Below, piece after piece: positions 939-7,643 of a stretch of 64,000 bases of DNA (the first letter of the stretch is position 1; every line of letters starts with the position of its first letter). A model generated the notes under the pieces. That model was not told where the DNA came from, did no database searches, and saw nothing but the letters and a program-made list of their open reading frames with translations. A program made the translations under genes and the position numbers. This stretch comes from Bacteriovoracaceae bacterium (GTDB lineage: Bacteria > Bdellovibrionota > Bacteriovoracia > Bacteriovoracales > Bacteriovoracaceae): contig JABGXW010000099.1 of the NCBI GenBank assembly GCA_018675575.1, forward strand, positions 1-64,000, given 5' to 3'.

Positions 939-1307
939 CTATATCTGCATTCTCATTATTTCTTTGTATGCATCAATGACTTTCAAACGAACTTGGTTCA
1001 TAGTTCGAAAAGCAATATCTGCTTTCTCAACAGCAAGCATCGTTTCATGAATATTTCCAGATTGACCGCTTGCTAATTTCTGTATGGCAACATCCGCTTC
1101 TGTTTGCAATGAGTTTACCTCTGTAATAGAACTTGCAAGCATATCACTGAATGATTGCTTACTTGAACCTTCGAGCTCTGAAACCGATAGCGAGCCCACA
1201 TCCGAAAGTTTAAATTCATCCGTTCCAATACTTGCTGATTTTGACCAATCTTTTGCATTATAATTTTTTAATACATTTAAAACTGATCCTGCTGTTTCTA
1301 TTGGCAT
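939..1307 (-). CDS. fliE: Flagellar hook-basal body protein FliE
   Basis: FliE is the small adaptor that joins the MS ring to the proximal rod and is the first rod protein exported. The 122-residue product has the usual FliE layout: a variable N-terminus and a conserved helical C-terminal half, with the typical motif around residues 88-105 (LAVEKADIAFRTMNQVR), close to the Gly/Ser-rich stretch. Length is close to the family norm of about 100-120. The ATG at 1305-1307 follows AGGAG with good spacing. It lies nine bases after flgC and is followed by a short hexamer repeat, then fliF. Confidence 0.93.
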   Translation of the reverse strand: MPIETAGSVLNVLKNYNAKDWSKSASIGTDEFKLSDVGSLSVSELEGSSKQSFSDMLASSITEVNSLQTEADVAIQKLASGQSGNIHETMLAVEKADIAFRTMNQVRLKVIDAYKEIMRMQI

Positions 1308-1316
1308 TACTTACTC

Positions 1317-1754
1317 CTATCTACCTATTTCTAAGGCCTTTAAGGCCATCCCTTTAGTAGTATTCATTGCATTTACATTTGCTTCATATGAACGTGATGT
1401 TGAAATCATATTTGCCATTTCTTCCATTACATTAATATTTGGATAAGCTACATATCCTTGTTCATTTGCATCCGGGTGATTAGGTTCGTACTTCAAAACT
1501 GGAGGTCTATTAGTAGAAATTACTTCCGTTGCGTGAACAGATTTGGCCATTGCATCCAACTCTCCTTCAAGTACTTCTGAAAAAGATTCTCTTACAGGCT
1601 CTGCTCCATAAACGACTTCTTTTCGTCTATAGGGGCCCCCCTCTGCTGTTCTGGTAGTTTGTGCATTAGCTATATTTGAAGAAATAGCTCCCATTCTCTT
1701 TCTATTTGCTGAAAGACCTGAGGAACTTATTCTTAAACTAGATAATAAATCCAT
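1317..1754 (-). CDS. flgC: Flagellar proximal rod protein FlgC
   Basis: FlgC is a proximal rod subunit of the flagellar basal body. The 145-residue protein has the N-terminal rod/hook motif (ISSNIANAQTTR, residues 24-35), in which the usual ANxxT sequence is recognisable, and the C-terminal rod signature around residues 117-145 (SRSYEANVNAMNTTKGMALK) that forms the paired helices of the axial proteins. Length matches the family. The ATG follows AGGAG. It is placed between flgB (ten-base gap) and fliE (nine-base gap), the standard flgB-flgC-fliE order, so co-transcription is expected. Confidence 0.95.
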   Translation of the reverse strand: MDLLSSLRISSSGLSANRKRMGAISSNIANAQTTRTAEGGPYRRKEVVYGAEPVRESFSEVLEGELDAMAKSVHATEVISTNRPPVLKYEPNHPDANEQGYVAYPNINVMEEMANMISTSRSYEANVNAMNTTKGMALKALEIGR

Positions 1755-1764
1755 AACTTAACTC

Positions 1765-2172
1765 CTACCTTTCCGATCCTATCGCGTACTTTAATAAACC
1801 AAGTTTTTTGTTTAATAATTGTACTGATGCATCGTAAAGAATTTTGTTTTTCGCCATTAAGGACATTTCTGCATCTCTATCTACAGTATTACCATCTTCA
1901 CTAACTACGCCATTTGGATCTTCAAAAACTTCAGGTTGCAGATTATTAAATCCTCCACTTCCAACATCAAAATGTCTTCCATCCTCGACATTTAATGATT
2001 CATTACCATCAACATCTAATGCTCTTGATAATGCTTCTTCAAATCCAATTCGTTTTGCTTTATAACCTGGTGTCTCAGCGTTAGCTATATTTGAGGTAAT
2101 AAGCTCTTGTCTCATCTGTCTGAAATTGATAGATGCTGCCAATGCTTGCATAGTTTTATCTTCTATCTTCAT
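1765..2172 (-). CDS. flgB: Flagellar proximal rod protein FlgB
   Basis: FlgB is the innermost FlgB/FlgC rod subunit. The 135-residue protein carries the flagellar rod motif SNIANAETPGYKAKR near residues 27-41 and a helical C-terminus (residues 105-135) for axial packing. It has no cleavable signal, as expected for a substrate of the flagellar type III exporter. The ATG follows GAGGATCT. It starts 25 bases after the regulator gene upstream, so it appears to be part of the same minus-strand transcript that starts before the 3170-5860 gene. Confidence 0.94.
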   Translation of the reverse strand: MKIEDKTMQALAASINFRQMRQELITSNIANAETPGYKAKRIGFEEALSRALDVDGNESLNVEDGRHFDVGSGGFNNLQPEVFEDPNGVVSEDGNTVDRDAEMSLMAKNKILYDASVQLLNKKLGLLKYAIGSER

Positions 2173-2197: not shown

Positions 2198-3130
2198 TTA
2201 TCTTAAGTTAACGAAATAGGCTGATCCTACGCCTCTATATTCATTGATTTTATTTCTTAAAGTTCTTATAGATACTCCCAAAATCTTTGCTGCTTGAGTT
2301 CTATTTTCACTAGTATGTACAAGAGCTTTTTTGATTAAAAGTTTTTCAGCTTCTTTTAGTGACATTAATCTGATTCCTTCGTTAACATCATCATTGATTA
2401 GAGATACTGATCTCTTCTCTCCAATTTCTAAATCTGCTTCGGTTAAAATTCCTGTATCTGAATTACAAATGGAGTTCTCAATTACTGTTTTCAACTCATG
2501 AACATTATGTGTCCAATAATGAGAGATTATTTTATTCATAGCCGAATCTTCAATTCTTACTTCTGAGTTTTTAGAGCAATTGGAAGCAAAAAAGTTTGCT
2601 AACATTTGAAGGTCGGTTTCTCTTTCTCTTAATGGAGTGATTGTGATCGCATTTTGAGAAATCATTGTATAAAGTCCTCTATAGAACCTTCCTGATCCAA
2701 CTAGTTTTGACAGGTTTTTTGTTGTAGTTGCAACAAATCTAATATCTATGTCATAATCTTGGAGTTCCATTAAGATTTTATGTAATCTTTTTTGGAAGCT
2801 ATCCTCTAGACCGTCAACATTAGCAAATACTACCGTTCCGCCATTTGTTGCCTCTAGAATTCCTTTATTAAATCTTCCTGTCTCTTCATCTCTATGCCCT
2901 AAGATCTCATTTTCAACTTGTTGAGCATCATTAGAACAATCAACAATTGCAAATTGAGCATCTGATCTTGCTGAATTTTGATGAACAAATTGACTCAGTG
3001 ACCTTTTTCCAACACCAGCTTCTCCCACTACAAGCACTGGAGCTTTAGTAACTGAAACATTTCTAGCGATAGAAATTGCTTTTTGAATTTTAGGATCTTG
3101 TCCGAAAAGTTCGACTCTTACAGTATCCAT
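2198..3130 (-). CDS. Degenerate sigma-54-activator-like AAA+ regulator in the flagellar operon
   Basis: The 310-residue protein is related to NtrC-family sigma-54 activators but has no receiver domain. Its AAA+ module (about residues 8-235) keeps Walker A (GEAGVGKR, 36-43) and the PLRERETD motif (about 156-163). It lacks the GAFTGA loop that contacts sigma-54: GH at 78-79 runs through DEET straight to GRF. Its Walker B reads VVFANVDG (100-107) instead of the usual acidic FLDEIG. A Fis-type helix-turn-helix lies at about 275-297. ATP-driven opening of sigma-54 promoters is therefore unlikely; DNA binding is likely. The upstream GTG frame extends to 3151, but AGGAGG at 3135-3140 marks the ATG at 3130. 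FlbD/FleQ-like flagellar control is inferred from context. Confidence 0.85.
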   Translation of the reverse strand: MDTVRVELFGQDPKIQKAISIARNVSVTKAPVLVVGEAGVGKRSLSQFVHQNSARSDAQFAIVDCSNDAQQVENEILGHRDEETGRFNKGILEATNGGTVVFANVDGLEDSFQKRLHKILMELQDYDIDIRFVATTTKNLSKLVGSGRFYRGLYTMISQNAITITPLRERETDLQMLANFFASNCSKNSEVRIEDSAMNKIISHYWTHNVHELKTVIENSICNSDTGILTEADLEIGEKRSVSLINDDVNEGIRLMSLKEAEKLLIKKALVHTSENRTQAAKILGVSIRTLRNKINEYRGVGSAYFVNLR

Positions 3131-3169
3131 TTGACCTCCTGTCATTAACACCCCTTCCTAGGGTGGGAA

Positions 3170-5860
3170 CTATATTGTTTTGTTTTTAATATTAATTAAC
3201 GATAATTCAGACTTTACCATTTCTTTGATATAATCTGAAACATCCTTGTCTTTTAAAATTTCGTTAAATACTTTAACTCCTTCTTTTTCATTATTTCCAT
3301 CTACAAAACCAAGGCCTAAAAGGTATCTTAAACGCCCCGCATATGTAGTCTTTGTATATTTTTTAAAGAATTTTTTTATTTCTGAAATGATTTCAACTCG
3401 AGAAGAAATACTATTTTCGGCAGCCAGTATTTCAATTAGAAGATAAGATATTCTTTCTTTAACTTCTTGAATAAAGATATTCTTCGATCCAAATCCCTTG
3501 GTATCATTTAATATGGCCTTCGCGGCTTTTTTATATTTCTTAGTATTTCCTACTTGATATATCGAATCGGTATAGGCTAATAACATCTCCGCGATTTCAG
3601 AAGGATCGTAAATCCTTTTTACCTTTTGATATGATATATAATTCTCTAAATCTCTCTCAGCACCTTGATATTTCTTTGTTTTATAATTAACAATTCCTCT
3701 ATAATAATGAGTCTTTCTATATGCAGGATAGATTGTGGAAATTACTTTTATACTTTTATAAGCCAATTCCCAATTTTTTAATTTAATATTTTTAATCAGC
3801 ATTAATTCATTAAGCATTATGTTCGAGGCAGTTAATCCATCTCGTTTAACCCAGATAGGAAAAGTCCTCTGTGGTGATTTCTCTAATTGTTGAAAAGACT
3901 TATAAACTTCATCAAATCCATTATAAAGCCCTGTTCTTATATATGATTTTCCTACAATGAAGTTAAGATATGCGTCGGTAGCAACTTTTCTTACATATTT
4001 TTCTTTATAGACATCCCAGACTCTAATAACTCTACTATATTCCCCCTTTTTAAAATCATCTAGCATAATCCCATAAATAGCTTCAGCGCCATCACCTTCT
4101 AGAACTCTTCTCTCTGTTTTAGATAATATGTTTAGAGGTATGGCGTTCAAATAAGTCAAAGCTTTCTTATATTCTTTGTCTGCTAATAATGTTCTTATTC
4201 TCACTAACCATAAAAGTTTTTTAAGATTTTTATTTCTTTTAAGCTTTAAATCATCCGTTTCTAATAGAATTCTTATTTCGCGATCATCTTTTGTGAGTTT
4301 CTTTTTTCGAACTGACCTTAAAGCAACATATCTAAGTCTCGCTTCATAACTAATTTTTTCATCTTGTGACTTATTTATTGCATTTTTATAAAGGTCACTT
4401 GTTTGTTTAATATCTTTGTCCAAAATCTCATAACATAGAGCAATTCTGAGTCTGGCTGCAGATGACTTTGTTATGTAGCTATAATTTGATAAGAATTGAT
4501 CAAATAACCTTATGGCCTCCTTATATCTTGCTTCTCTGAATAAGGCCTCAGCAACATTGAATAATATGGTTGGATTCGCGGGTTGAATAATTGATTTTAA
4601 GTTCTTCTCATATAGTTTTATTGCATTGGATATTTTTCCAATTTTTATAAGTGTATAAATTTCATAAGCTAACATTGTTTGAGCAGACACTAATTTCTTT
4701 AAAGTTTTATCTTTTATAACTTCTCGTAGTTTTTCAACTTGTCTCAGCTGAGTTAACGAAAAGAGGATCGTTTCAGCTGCGAAGCCTGATTCTTCGTAGT
4801 CGAAATTTTCTTTTGATGAAACGTAAAACATCTTTGCATAATCTAGGGACTTAACATAATCATTAGCTGATAGTTTAAATGTAATAAGGTATTTTAAAAT
4901 ACCTTTTTTCATTTCATAGTTTTTTGTTCTTTTAGCAATAGTTGTCAGCATTGCGATTGCTGTTTTCACCGGTTTTCTATTACCTTTATCAATATTTTCT
5001 CTTAATATTGAATTTGCCTTCAAATACTCTAGCAACTCAATATGATCATCATCTCCATACTTCTCATAAAAAAGAGTAATGGATTTATACATCAATCCCC
5101 ACTTTTTCTTCCTGTATAGATTGATTGCCAATTGCAAATGAGCCTCTTTGTCATTTTTGCTATATTTTCTATCTCTAATTGGGAAAAAGTGTTCAGGTGT
5201 TTTTCTTTCTAGGTTAAGAATATTTTTTACTTTTGGACTTAATGGTTCATAGTCCCAAATAGAACTTGCTCCATATCTAAAATCTCGATATGCCTTATTA
5301 ATTTTTTTAACCACAACTTTCTTTTTCTTATTCTTGATAACCTTTTTTACTAAAGAAGGTCTTTTTAATAGTATTGGGGCCTTAGCATTAGGTTTATCTA
5401 CCGTAGGAGCCTCAACATCCTTTTGTTTTAATATTTTTGCAATCTCTTTTTTCTCGGCACTTAGTAAGCTATCTGAATCTGACCAAAAATCTAAAACATA
5501 GTTTTTGTCTCTATCCTTATAGAAAGTAAATAGTTCTATATCTTCTCTTGTTAGTTCTAAAGTTAAACTCTTTACAGCTGTTTCTTTAGAGTTAGGATCA
5601 ATGATCATTTTTTTAATATAATTTCCGACTGTCGAAAGTTCTGCCAAGTCGTCTGCAACTTTTTTAAAGACATCTGCATTTAATGATTTTATAGTGATTG
5701 ATTTTCCATTTTTATTTATTGTTAAGAGGTCTTTTGGTACTGATATTTTTAATCTTAAATGCGACTTTGCACTTTCAATTGTAATGACTCCAGCAAAAAT
5801 TGCAGGCGACATCATAATGAATAGAAGATATGTCAAAAATTTGATCTTAATCTGTTTCAT
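3170..5860 (-). CDS. Large secreted TPR-rich protein at the head of the flagellar operon
   Basis: This 896-residue protein has a signal peptide (residues 1-23, cut after IFA). It then has a beta-rich N-terminal domain to about residue 135, a Lys/Pro-rich linker (about 150-190), and a long all-helical region (about 225-890) with tetratricopeptide-like units such as LFNVAEALFREARYKEAIRL and YKTKKYQGAERDLENY. It should act in the periplasm as a scaffold. The gene precedes the degenerate regulator by 39 bases and flgB-flgC-fliE-fliF, so a role in flagellar assembly or motility is suggested by position only. I cannot name the family. The 244 bases upstream hold an inverted repeat and repeated TAGGCAA words. 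Confidence 0.8.
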   Translation of the reverse strand: MKQIKIKFLTYLLFIMMSPAIFAGVITIESAKSHLRLKISVPKDLLTINKNGKSITIKSLNADVFKKVADDLAELSTVGNYIKKMIIDPNSKETAVKSLTLELTREDIELFTFYKDRDKNYVLDFWSDSDSLLSAEKKEIAKILKQKDVEAPTVDKPNAKAPILLKRPSLVKKVIKNKKKKVVVKKINKAYRDFRYGASSIWDYEPLSPKVKNILNLERKTPEHFFPIRDRKYSKNDKEAHLQLAINLYRKKKWGLMYKSITLFYEKYGDDDHIELLEYLKANSILRENIDKGNRKPVKTAIAMLTTIAKRTKNYEMKKGILKYLITFKLSANDYVKSLDYAKMFYVSSKENFDYEESGFAAETILFSLTQLRQVEKLREVIKDKTLKKLVSAQTMLAYEIYTLIKIGKISNAIKLYEKNLKSIIQPANPTILFNVAEALFREARYKEAIRLFDQFLSNYSYITKSSAARLRIALCYEILDKDIKQTSDLYKNAINKSQDEKISYEARLRYVALRSVRKKKLTKDDREIRILLETDDLKLKRNKNLKKLLWLVRIRTLLADKEYKKALTYLNAIPLNILSKTERRVLEGDGAEAIYGIMLDDFKKGEYSRVIRVWDVYKEKYVRKVATDAYLNFIVGKSYIRTGLYNGFDEVYKSFQQLEKSPQRTFPIWVKRDGLTASNIMLNELMLIKNIKLKNWELAYKSIKVISTIYPAYRKTHYYRGIVNYKTKKYQGAERDLENYISYQKVKRIYDPSEIAEMLLAYTDSIYQVGNTKKYKKAAKAILNDTKGFGSKNIFIQEVKERISYLLIEILAAENSISSRVEIISEIKKFFKKYTKTTYAGRLRYLLGLGFVDGNNEKEGVKVFNEILKDKDVSDYIKEMVKSELSLINIKNKTI

Positions 5861-6022
5861 GTGAGTCGAACTTCCTGTTCTTTTTTTGCTTTAGACAAGG
5901 CCCAATCATTCTTCCTAAACAATTGCCTTACAATAATTCTATCATTTTCGTGGGAATAATAAAGGAAAATTTTTCTCTTAGGACTTTTTTGCCTATCTAC
6001 TTTTTGACAGAGGTTAAAATTG

Positions 6023-6104: not shown

Positions 6105-7643
6105 TTATAAATTAAGAGTATTCATACCTTTCTTTTTCATCTTTTCAATCAAAGTAGTTCTATTAAGATGAAGTAATTTAGAAGCTTGGTTTTTATTTCC
6201 GCCAGTCTTGTCTAAGGCCTGCATTATTAGACTTTCTTCAATATTTGATAAAACTGATTTCAAATTCATTCCGTCTTCTGGCAATTGAAGAAGGTCAGCA
6301 GTATTATTCTCGAATGAAGTATTTTGTAAAAACTTCTTAGGAAGATCTTCAACTTCAATTGTTGCCCCACCTTTTAGAATAACTAATCTTTCCATTAAGT
6401 TTTCAAGCTCTCTAACATTTCCAGGCCAATCATACCCAACAAGCATATCGAGGGCATCTGAACTAAACTCAACATTATTTCTTAAGTCGGCACTAACAAA
6501 TCGGGATAAAAAATATGAAATTAGTAATGGTATGTCTTCTCGCCTCGCACATAGAGGTGGGATTTTTATAGGAATAACATTTAATCTATAATAAAGGTCT
6601 TCTCTAAAGTCACCTGCAGTGACTGCTTCTTCTAAATCTCTATGTGTTGCTGTGATAATTCGAACATCAATGGGTGTAGTCTCACTACTTCCAACTCTTT
6701 CGATAACTCTGTTTTGTAATACTCTTAAAAGCTTTACTTGTAGTAAGAGTGGCATATCTCCAATTTCATCTAAAAATATAGATCCCTTGTTTGCCAACTC
6801 AAATCTGCCTTTTCTACTTGATATAGCTCCAGTAAATGCACCTTTTTCGTGGCCAAATAATTCACTTTCTAAAAGCTCAGCAGGTATAGCTCCACAATTT
6901 ACGGAAATCATTGATTGAGACATTCTATTGGAAAGTTTATGAATTGCATTGGCAATCAATTCTTTCCCTGTTCCCGAAGGGCCTCCAATTAAGACTGTTG
7001 AATCAGATGCTGCAACTCGCTGAACACGATCAAATACTACTTTCATTTTATTAGATCTTCCTATCATTCCGCAGAAAACATCTTCTTCAGTAGGTAGCTC
7101 TAATCGATACTTAAGGTTTTTTCGAGAGTTTTTGTTAATAATAGAATCTTCAGTCTTTGGTTGAGCTATCTCTTTAAATGAATAATTTAATTGTGTTTGG
7201 AAAGCATTTTTAATGAGATCTACTAGTTTATCAAGTTCAAATGGCTTTGTGAGATAGTGAAAAACATCTTTTTTTGTTGCTTGAATTGCTGTTTCAATTG
7301 ACGCAAATCCAGTCATAACTAAAGGAACAAATTCAAATCCCTTATCTCGTAATATATCTATCAATAGAAGTCCATCTGTGGCGCATTCCATTTTAAAGCT
7401 TATGTCTGTGACTAAGCAAAATTTATCTAGTGTATTTAAGTCTTTGAGATTAGTTAAAAATTCCACGCATGAGTCAGGATCTTCAAAATAATCTACTTCT
7501 AGACCAAGTTTTTTTTCAATATATTTTTTAAGAGGTTTTCCAAATGAAAAATCATCTTCTACAAGAATTAATCTAGGTTTTAAACTATCAGATACTGAAC
7601 CATCGTGGTCAAATGATAGGTGTAAATGTTTCAAATCATCCAT
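6105..7643 (-). CDS. NtrC-family sigma-54-dependent response regulator
   Basis: This complete 512-residue enhancer-binding regulator has a receiver domain (about 23-145) with the acidic pair E29/D30 plus D31, the phosphorylatable D80 (LVTDIS), T111 and K133. Its AAA+ domain (about 190-430) has Walker A GGPSGTGKE at 220-228, an intact GAFTGA at 268-273 and Walker B FLDEIGD with D292/E293. A Fis-type helix-turn-helix ends the protein (NQASKLLHLNRTTLIEKMKK). No partner histidine kinase is adjacent. It lies directly upstream of the flagellar operon and could drive its sigma-54 promoters, as FlgR or FleR do elsewhere; that is inference. AGAGG precedes the ATG. Confidence 0.93.
   Translation of the reverse strand: MDDLKHLHLSFDHDGSVSDSLKPRLILVEDDFSFGKPLKKYIEKKLGLEVDYFEDPDSCVEFLTNLKDLNTLDKFCLVTDISFKMECATDGLLLIDILRDKGFEFVPLVMTGFASIETAIQATKKDVFHYLTKPFELDKLVDLIKNAFQTQLNYSFKEIAQPKTEDSIINKNSRKNLKYRLELPTEEDVFCGMIGRSNKMKVVFDRVQRVAASDSTVLIGGPSGTGKELIANAIHKLSNRMSQSMISVNCGAIPAELLESELFGHEKGAFTGAISSRKGRFELANKGSIFLDEIGDMPLLLQVKLLRVLQNRVIERVGSSETTPIDVRIITATHRDLEEAVTAGDFREDLYYRLNVIPIKIPPLCARREDIPLLISYFLSRFVSADLRNNVEFSSDALDMLVGYDWPGNVRELENLMERLVILKGGATIEVEDLPKKFLQNTSFENNTADLLQLPEDGMNLKSVLSNIEESLIMQALDKTGGNKNQASKLLHLNRTTLIEKMKKKGMNTLNL

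Follow-up and report, generated by a model that had tools for sequence, protein, structure and literature searches.

A conserved pseudo-ATPase of sigma-54 activator ancestry as a probable regulator of the early flagellar operon that encodes it in the class Bacteriovoracia

TyrR is an enhancer-binding protein (EBP) that lacks the GAFTGA motif and acts at sigma-70 promoters. The same is described for the NtrC proteins of Caulobacter and Rhodobacter capsulatus and for VpsR (PMC10274813). As a rule, the passing of a regulator from one sigma factor to another has been argued from single examples. In the flagellar field a close known system is FlbD of Caulobacter. This sigma-54 activator is intact and has a receiver domain; it acts as a repressor of the early fliF operon and as an activator of later genes (excerpts of PMC3930126 and PMC3096577).

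The regulator described here, from the class Bacteriovoracia (f1 in our numbering of families), has the AAA+/HTH build of the sigma-70-acting EBPs and, like them, keeps Walker A, lacks GAFTGA and appears to have lost the sigma-54 task. Unlike them, it also lacks the Walker B acids, the R-fingers, the sensor II Arg, most of loop L2 and a receiver domain, and it is encoded in a flagellar operon. A further difference is that such losses probably occurred in three lineages, with the promoter switch visible by comparison. With FlbD it shares the flagellar setting and a related HTH. The flgB-linked EBPs of families f3, f8, f9, f11 and others occupy the same gene place, have a close HTH and in most cases a TPR neighbour, but their catalytic motifs are intact and a sigma-54 promoter precedes their operon. 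Among the articles listed by searches of the literature, which covered few subscription journals, we recognised no account of the Bacteriovoracia regulator, including in the portions seen of PMC11656739, PMC10274813 and PMC7175178. Intact, broken and nearly vanished versions at one gene place, with promoters readable alongside, make it testable whether protein or promoter changed first, and in predatory bacteria the operon is likely to be a point at which flagellar assembly is controlled.

The locus lies in a window of 64,000 nucleotides, the whole stretch of DNA that was analysed. The genes for the TPR protein, the pseudo-ATPase regulator, FlgB, FlgC and FliE form, in this order, an operon-like run (Table 1), which probably extends to fliF. 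All five were found together in 30/30 of the first loci compared; downstream of the regulator gene, flgB and flgC were present in all 80 named loci of the class and fliE in 79.

Table 1. Positions of the features discussed, numbered within the window
Feature	Position	Strand	Details
fliE	939..1307	-	TIGR00205 over cut-off
flgC, rod protein	1317..1754	-	TIGR01395 over cut-off
flgB, rod protein	1765..2172	-	TIGR01396 over cut-off
Pseudo-ATPase regulator	2198..3130	-	Walker A and a Fis-type HTH retained; GAFTGA, Walker B DE, R-fingers and sensor II Arg missing from the AAA+ module
TPR-repeat protein, leading gene of the operon	3170..5860	-	
TAGAAT, proposed -10 box	5936..5941	-	Second palindrome centred 29 bp away
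Tandem palindromes, proposed operator	5964..5993	-	GGCAAAAAAGTCC (5981-5993) and AGAAAAATTTTCC (5964-5976), centres 17 bp apart
Intact NtrC-type regulator	6105..7643	-	Receiver, AAA+ with GAFTGA and DE, HTH

The regulator ORF (2198..3151, minus strand) is real; the ATG at 3130, with an AGGAGGT ribosome site ahead of it, is the likely start and gives a product of 310 residues. Pfam recognises Sigma54_activat, AAA_lid_14 and HTH_8, that is, the AAA+ core, lid and HTH of sigma-54 activators. The second-best match is the NCBIfam FlbD model, at 149 bits far below its equivalog cut-off of 750. The predicted structure retains the AAA+ fold (pLDDT 81.6), with NtrC1 as top structural match. Alignment and Pfam bear out what the first-pass annotation had read at these coordinates: Walker A is kept (GEAGVGKR), while VVFANVDG stands where intact relatives have an LFLDEIG-like Walker B. 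The same annotation had held GAFTGA to be deleted rather than mutated; the motif is indeed lost, but in the alignment with intact relatives it is replaced by ILGHRDEETGRFNKG and shortened by a net 3 residues. It had not listed three further losses: (i) loop L2 is 8 residues shorter than in the intact relatives; (ii) both R-finger positions are gone (FREDLYYRL to FYRGLYTMI), an Arg one position beside a lost R-finger being invariant among the aligned orthologues; and (iii) the sensor II Arg is missing (WPGNVREL to WTHNVHEL). That GAFTGA and the Walker B acids are required for sigma-54 activation, as the annotation stated, is established (PMC7175178, in the part seen). The losses support the view that the product is a DNA-binding regulator predicted to be unable to do the ATPase job of a sigma-54 activator.

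In total, the gene was found in 108 of 116 class genomes and in 73/73 of the good ones (at least 90% complete, at most 5% contaminated). Most genomes compared, within the class and outside it, are metagenome assemblies. The carriers of the gene include Bacteriovorax, Halobacteriovorax and their relatives; most bacteria of the class are predators. The catalytic losses recur in every one of the 35 aligned orthologues, and GExGxGK is invariant in them. A pattern check of the 80 named loci, which partly overlap with the genomes of these orthologues, gave GAFTGA, the Walker B DE and the R-finger motif in 0/80 each, Walker A in 79/80 and one HTH pattern in 80/80. Losses common to all 35 aligned proteins can be ascribed neither to chance nor to pseudogene decay. 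Moreover, conserved substitutes have appeared, for example DEETGRF-like at loop L1 and DYDID-like together with KNLSK near sensor I, which points to a new constraint and not to decay. Mean pairwise identity among the class orthologues is 94% in the HTH and 54% in the AAA+ part; for the intact f8 relatives the values are 83% and 74%. Judged by these alignments, the product is a conserved pseudo-ATPase and its gene is not decaying.

We next turn to the promoter of the TPR operon, for which 70 class regions were available: one from the window and 69 from the named loci, the other 11 of the 80 having too little sequence. A sigma-54 site was taken as a weighted -24/-12 score of at least 13.5 out of 14.6 between -300 and +500 relative to the first base of the TPR ORF. 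By this score no class region has one ahead of the operon (0/70), and a sigma-54 promoter was therefore rejected. Sigma-54 itself is in use in the organism, whose genome has rpoN and 246 sites compared with 44 in the control. At the 14 perfect sites many of the products are exported or lipoprotein-like, and no flagellar gene was recognised there (translated ORFs inspected by eye).

What the class regions do contain is a tandem palindrome of consensus GGMA-N5-TKCC, at a set spacing ahead of a TAnAAT box, in 69 of 70 cases. The box, scored as TANNNT, keeps a constant distance from the palindromes in 67 of the 69 aligned regions; site 1 is the looser palindrome, its outer GG and CC being exact in 37/69. 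A good -35 box is absent from these promoters. The palindrome presumably resembles the FlbD ftr consensus. A matrix built from 22 of the 70 regions, the window included, detected the motif (score above 0) in 47 of the 48 regions outside training and in 0.14% of 1400 shuffles, the best of which reached 4.1. Scores above 15 were obtained for 59 matches in class promoters and for 2 elsewhere among 2.46 million strand positions. Five further class loci were scanned, of which L046 (16.5) and L044 (25.5) have the motif and L043 is cut off; it is missing in three class regions, L079, L042 and L045. A strict tandem pattern with at most one mismatch occurs twice in the organism's own genome, once at the proposed operator. 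Among five other class genomes it marks the TPR promoter in one (G059, H. marinus), occurs only at other places in two (G061, G062) and has no occurrence in two (G060, G063). The strict pattern is thus more restrictive than the matrix. Two other repeated patterns emerged from the initial search for palindromes, one being the RNA hairpin described below and the other lying where the TPR gene begins.

These observations can be joined in one scheme, to which we give a probability of roughly two in three. The ancestor of the phylum would have had a single-domain sigma-54 activator encoded directly upstream of flgB. In Bacteriovoracia this protein would have lost ATP hydrolysis and both loops contacting sigma-54 and become a conventional HTH transcription factor, in which the kept Walker A may still allow nucleotide binding to act as a switch. 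It would bind the two palindromes ahead of its own early flagellar operon, comprising the TPR gene, itself, flgB, flgC and fliE and probably reaching to fliF. With TAnAAT as the -10 box, the midpoints of the palindromes would fall at about -41 and -58, where a class II activator working with sigma-70-type RNA polymerase sits.

To see how the gene behaves elsewhere, the place upstream of flgB can be compared among families. The gene is intact in f3, f8, f9, f11 and most other families seen, and broken in f12 and f6. Cases in which the ORF was wrongly picked or missing (G042 and G056 of f7; G145, G158, G203 and G214) were left out of the intact/dead counts, and five loci without a recognised flgB were dropped. 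Of the 24 genomes searched for flgB in this comparison, 13 have it above the family cut-off; the 24 include the class genomes G032 and G033, which fall below it. A sigma-54 site near the TPR start was found in 30/32 genomes outside f1, f6 and f12 (among the 32, two have partly degenerate proteins and one has no called protein; G203 is included among the 16 f8 windows), in 18/18 of f6, in 0/11 of f12 and in 3/310 control windows. Homologues with full catalytic motifs, which together with sigma-54 activation by this protein the first-pass annotation named as what would refute its reading, do exist at this place outside the class and indicate the ancestral state; function in the class is not thereby restored.

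The f6 proteins (L233-L261), which we would only guess to be linked to Bdellovibrio, show graded erosion, from about 295 residues through 240-260 to 150-155, with the sigma-54 site kept; in one of the shortest that was scanned, HTH_8 is the sole domain left. A wrecked protein beside a preserved site means that loss of the promoter and loss of the ATPase are not strictly coupled. Two single proteins among the 32 windows above, both with a sigma-54 site, carry altered motifs: L244 (G169) has GAFVGA and a Walker B DD, and L303 (G207) has DAFAGA. They may possibly represent early stages of decay.

In a tree of FlgB, FlgC and FliE (395 columns, 26 rows, midpoint root drawn for display), f12 is sister to the intact f8 and f6 to the intact f11. 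A single loss for all broken lineages was rejected (AU test, p = 2.2e-5), and the fewest changes of state on the tree are three. Given an intact ancestor, the rejection of a common broken clade makes at least three ATPase losses likely. Just two promoter switches are seen, in the class and in f12, so the link between protein and promoter is not statistically secure. The wider picture has, in our estimate, an even chance of being right: in one phylum the flgB-linked EBP would have become a pseudo-ATPase on three or more occasions, two of them with a swap from a sigma-54 to a sigma-70-type promoter bearing the same type of palindrome, and in f6 stepwise down to a DNA-binder of about 150 residues with the sigma-54 site kept. 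If true, it offers a natural series from an ATP-driven activator to an ordinary transcription factor.

From sequence comparison, f12 seems to have made a similar change of protein and promoter independently. A GG(C/A)A-N5-T(G/T)CC palindrome is present in 8/11 of its regions, placed differently from the class palindromes, namely between a TTGC-like box and a CACAAT box, which looks more like the geometry of a repressor or a spacer. In the intact f3 relatives (G038, G046) similar palindromes lie upstream of the sigma-54 site before flgB. The f12 position, within a promoter-like spacer, and the dual role of FlbD cited above are what an autorepressor would lead one to expect: the repressing half of an FlbD-like regulator would survive and close the early operon when the basal body has been assembled, another factor activating it. 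We regard this as unlikely, though it is the strongest of the alternatives, since the class promoters have a layout suited to an activator, with the palindromes ahead of the -10 box at a constant class II spacing and no good -35 box. On the same grounds, and taking control of its own operon by the pseudo-ATPase as the preferred reading, we favour self-activation as the probable direction, self-repression keeping a considerable chance.

The palindromes might also belong to another, unlinked regulator, with the pseudo-ATPase controlling other genes. We infer the tie between palindrome and protein from linkage and parallel change, and two lineages lacking flgB keep the gene beside fliF, so that flgB is not a necessary partner. 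Against this, gene, operon and motif stay together even in the flgB-less L046, and f12 has the same type of palindrome with a linked protein devoid of ATPase motifs; we consider an unlinked regulator improbable. In the two lineages in question, L046 (G034) and L045 (G030), the pseudo-ATPase gene lies directly ahead of a fliF-like gene, the L046 match falling slightly below the Pfam cut-off. Beside the regulator flgB, flgC and fliE were not found, and flgF gave no match at 1e-30 in either genome. These lineages possibly retain a rod-less flagellar remnant or an export system.

The first-pass annotation had further proposed that the protein opposes or titrates the intact NtrC-type regulator, the two forming a paired active/inactive set. 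Its view of a DNA-binding regulator stands, whereas the pairing lacks support. Recognition helices of the pseudo-ATPase and the NtrC-type protein differ (SIRTLRNKINEY vs NRTTLIEKMKKK), which makes common sites unlikely. For 68 of the 80 loci enough sequence ahead of the TPR gene is available: the NtrC-type gene immediately precedes the TPR gene in 25, lies at a greater distance upstream in another 25 and does not occur within the available stretch in 18. An anti-activator working through mixed oligomers or common DNA sites, to which the 25 loci with both genes flanking the TPR gene and a possibly persisting AAA+ oligomer face might point, is thus very improbable in view of the different helices, the lost R-fingers and sensor II Arg, the 18 loci with no such neighbour in the available stretch and the lack of a sigma-54 site in 70/70 regions.

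A division of labour between the two regulators is possible. Upstream of flgF, sigma-54-like sites were found in class loci L335-L364, in 5/30 at a score of at least 13.5 and in 13/30 at 12.5 or more; where they persist, another activator must serve them. Their distribution within the class is patchy, as though drift affected this promoter too.

The leader of the TPR gene (5860-5935, minus strand) contains, as does the same place in other class loci, hairpins with an AGGA loop, the last of them near the ribosome site. At least one is present in 66 of 70 leaders and two in 50 (means for shuffled sequences 6.8 and 0.28, respectively). Their stems show paired changes, and the hairpins resemble CsrA-type sites.
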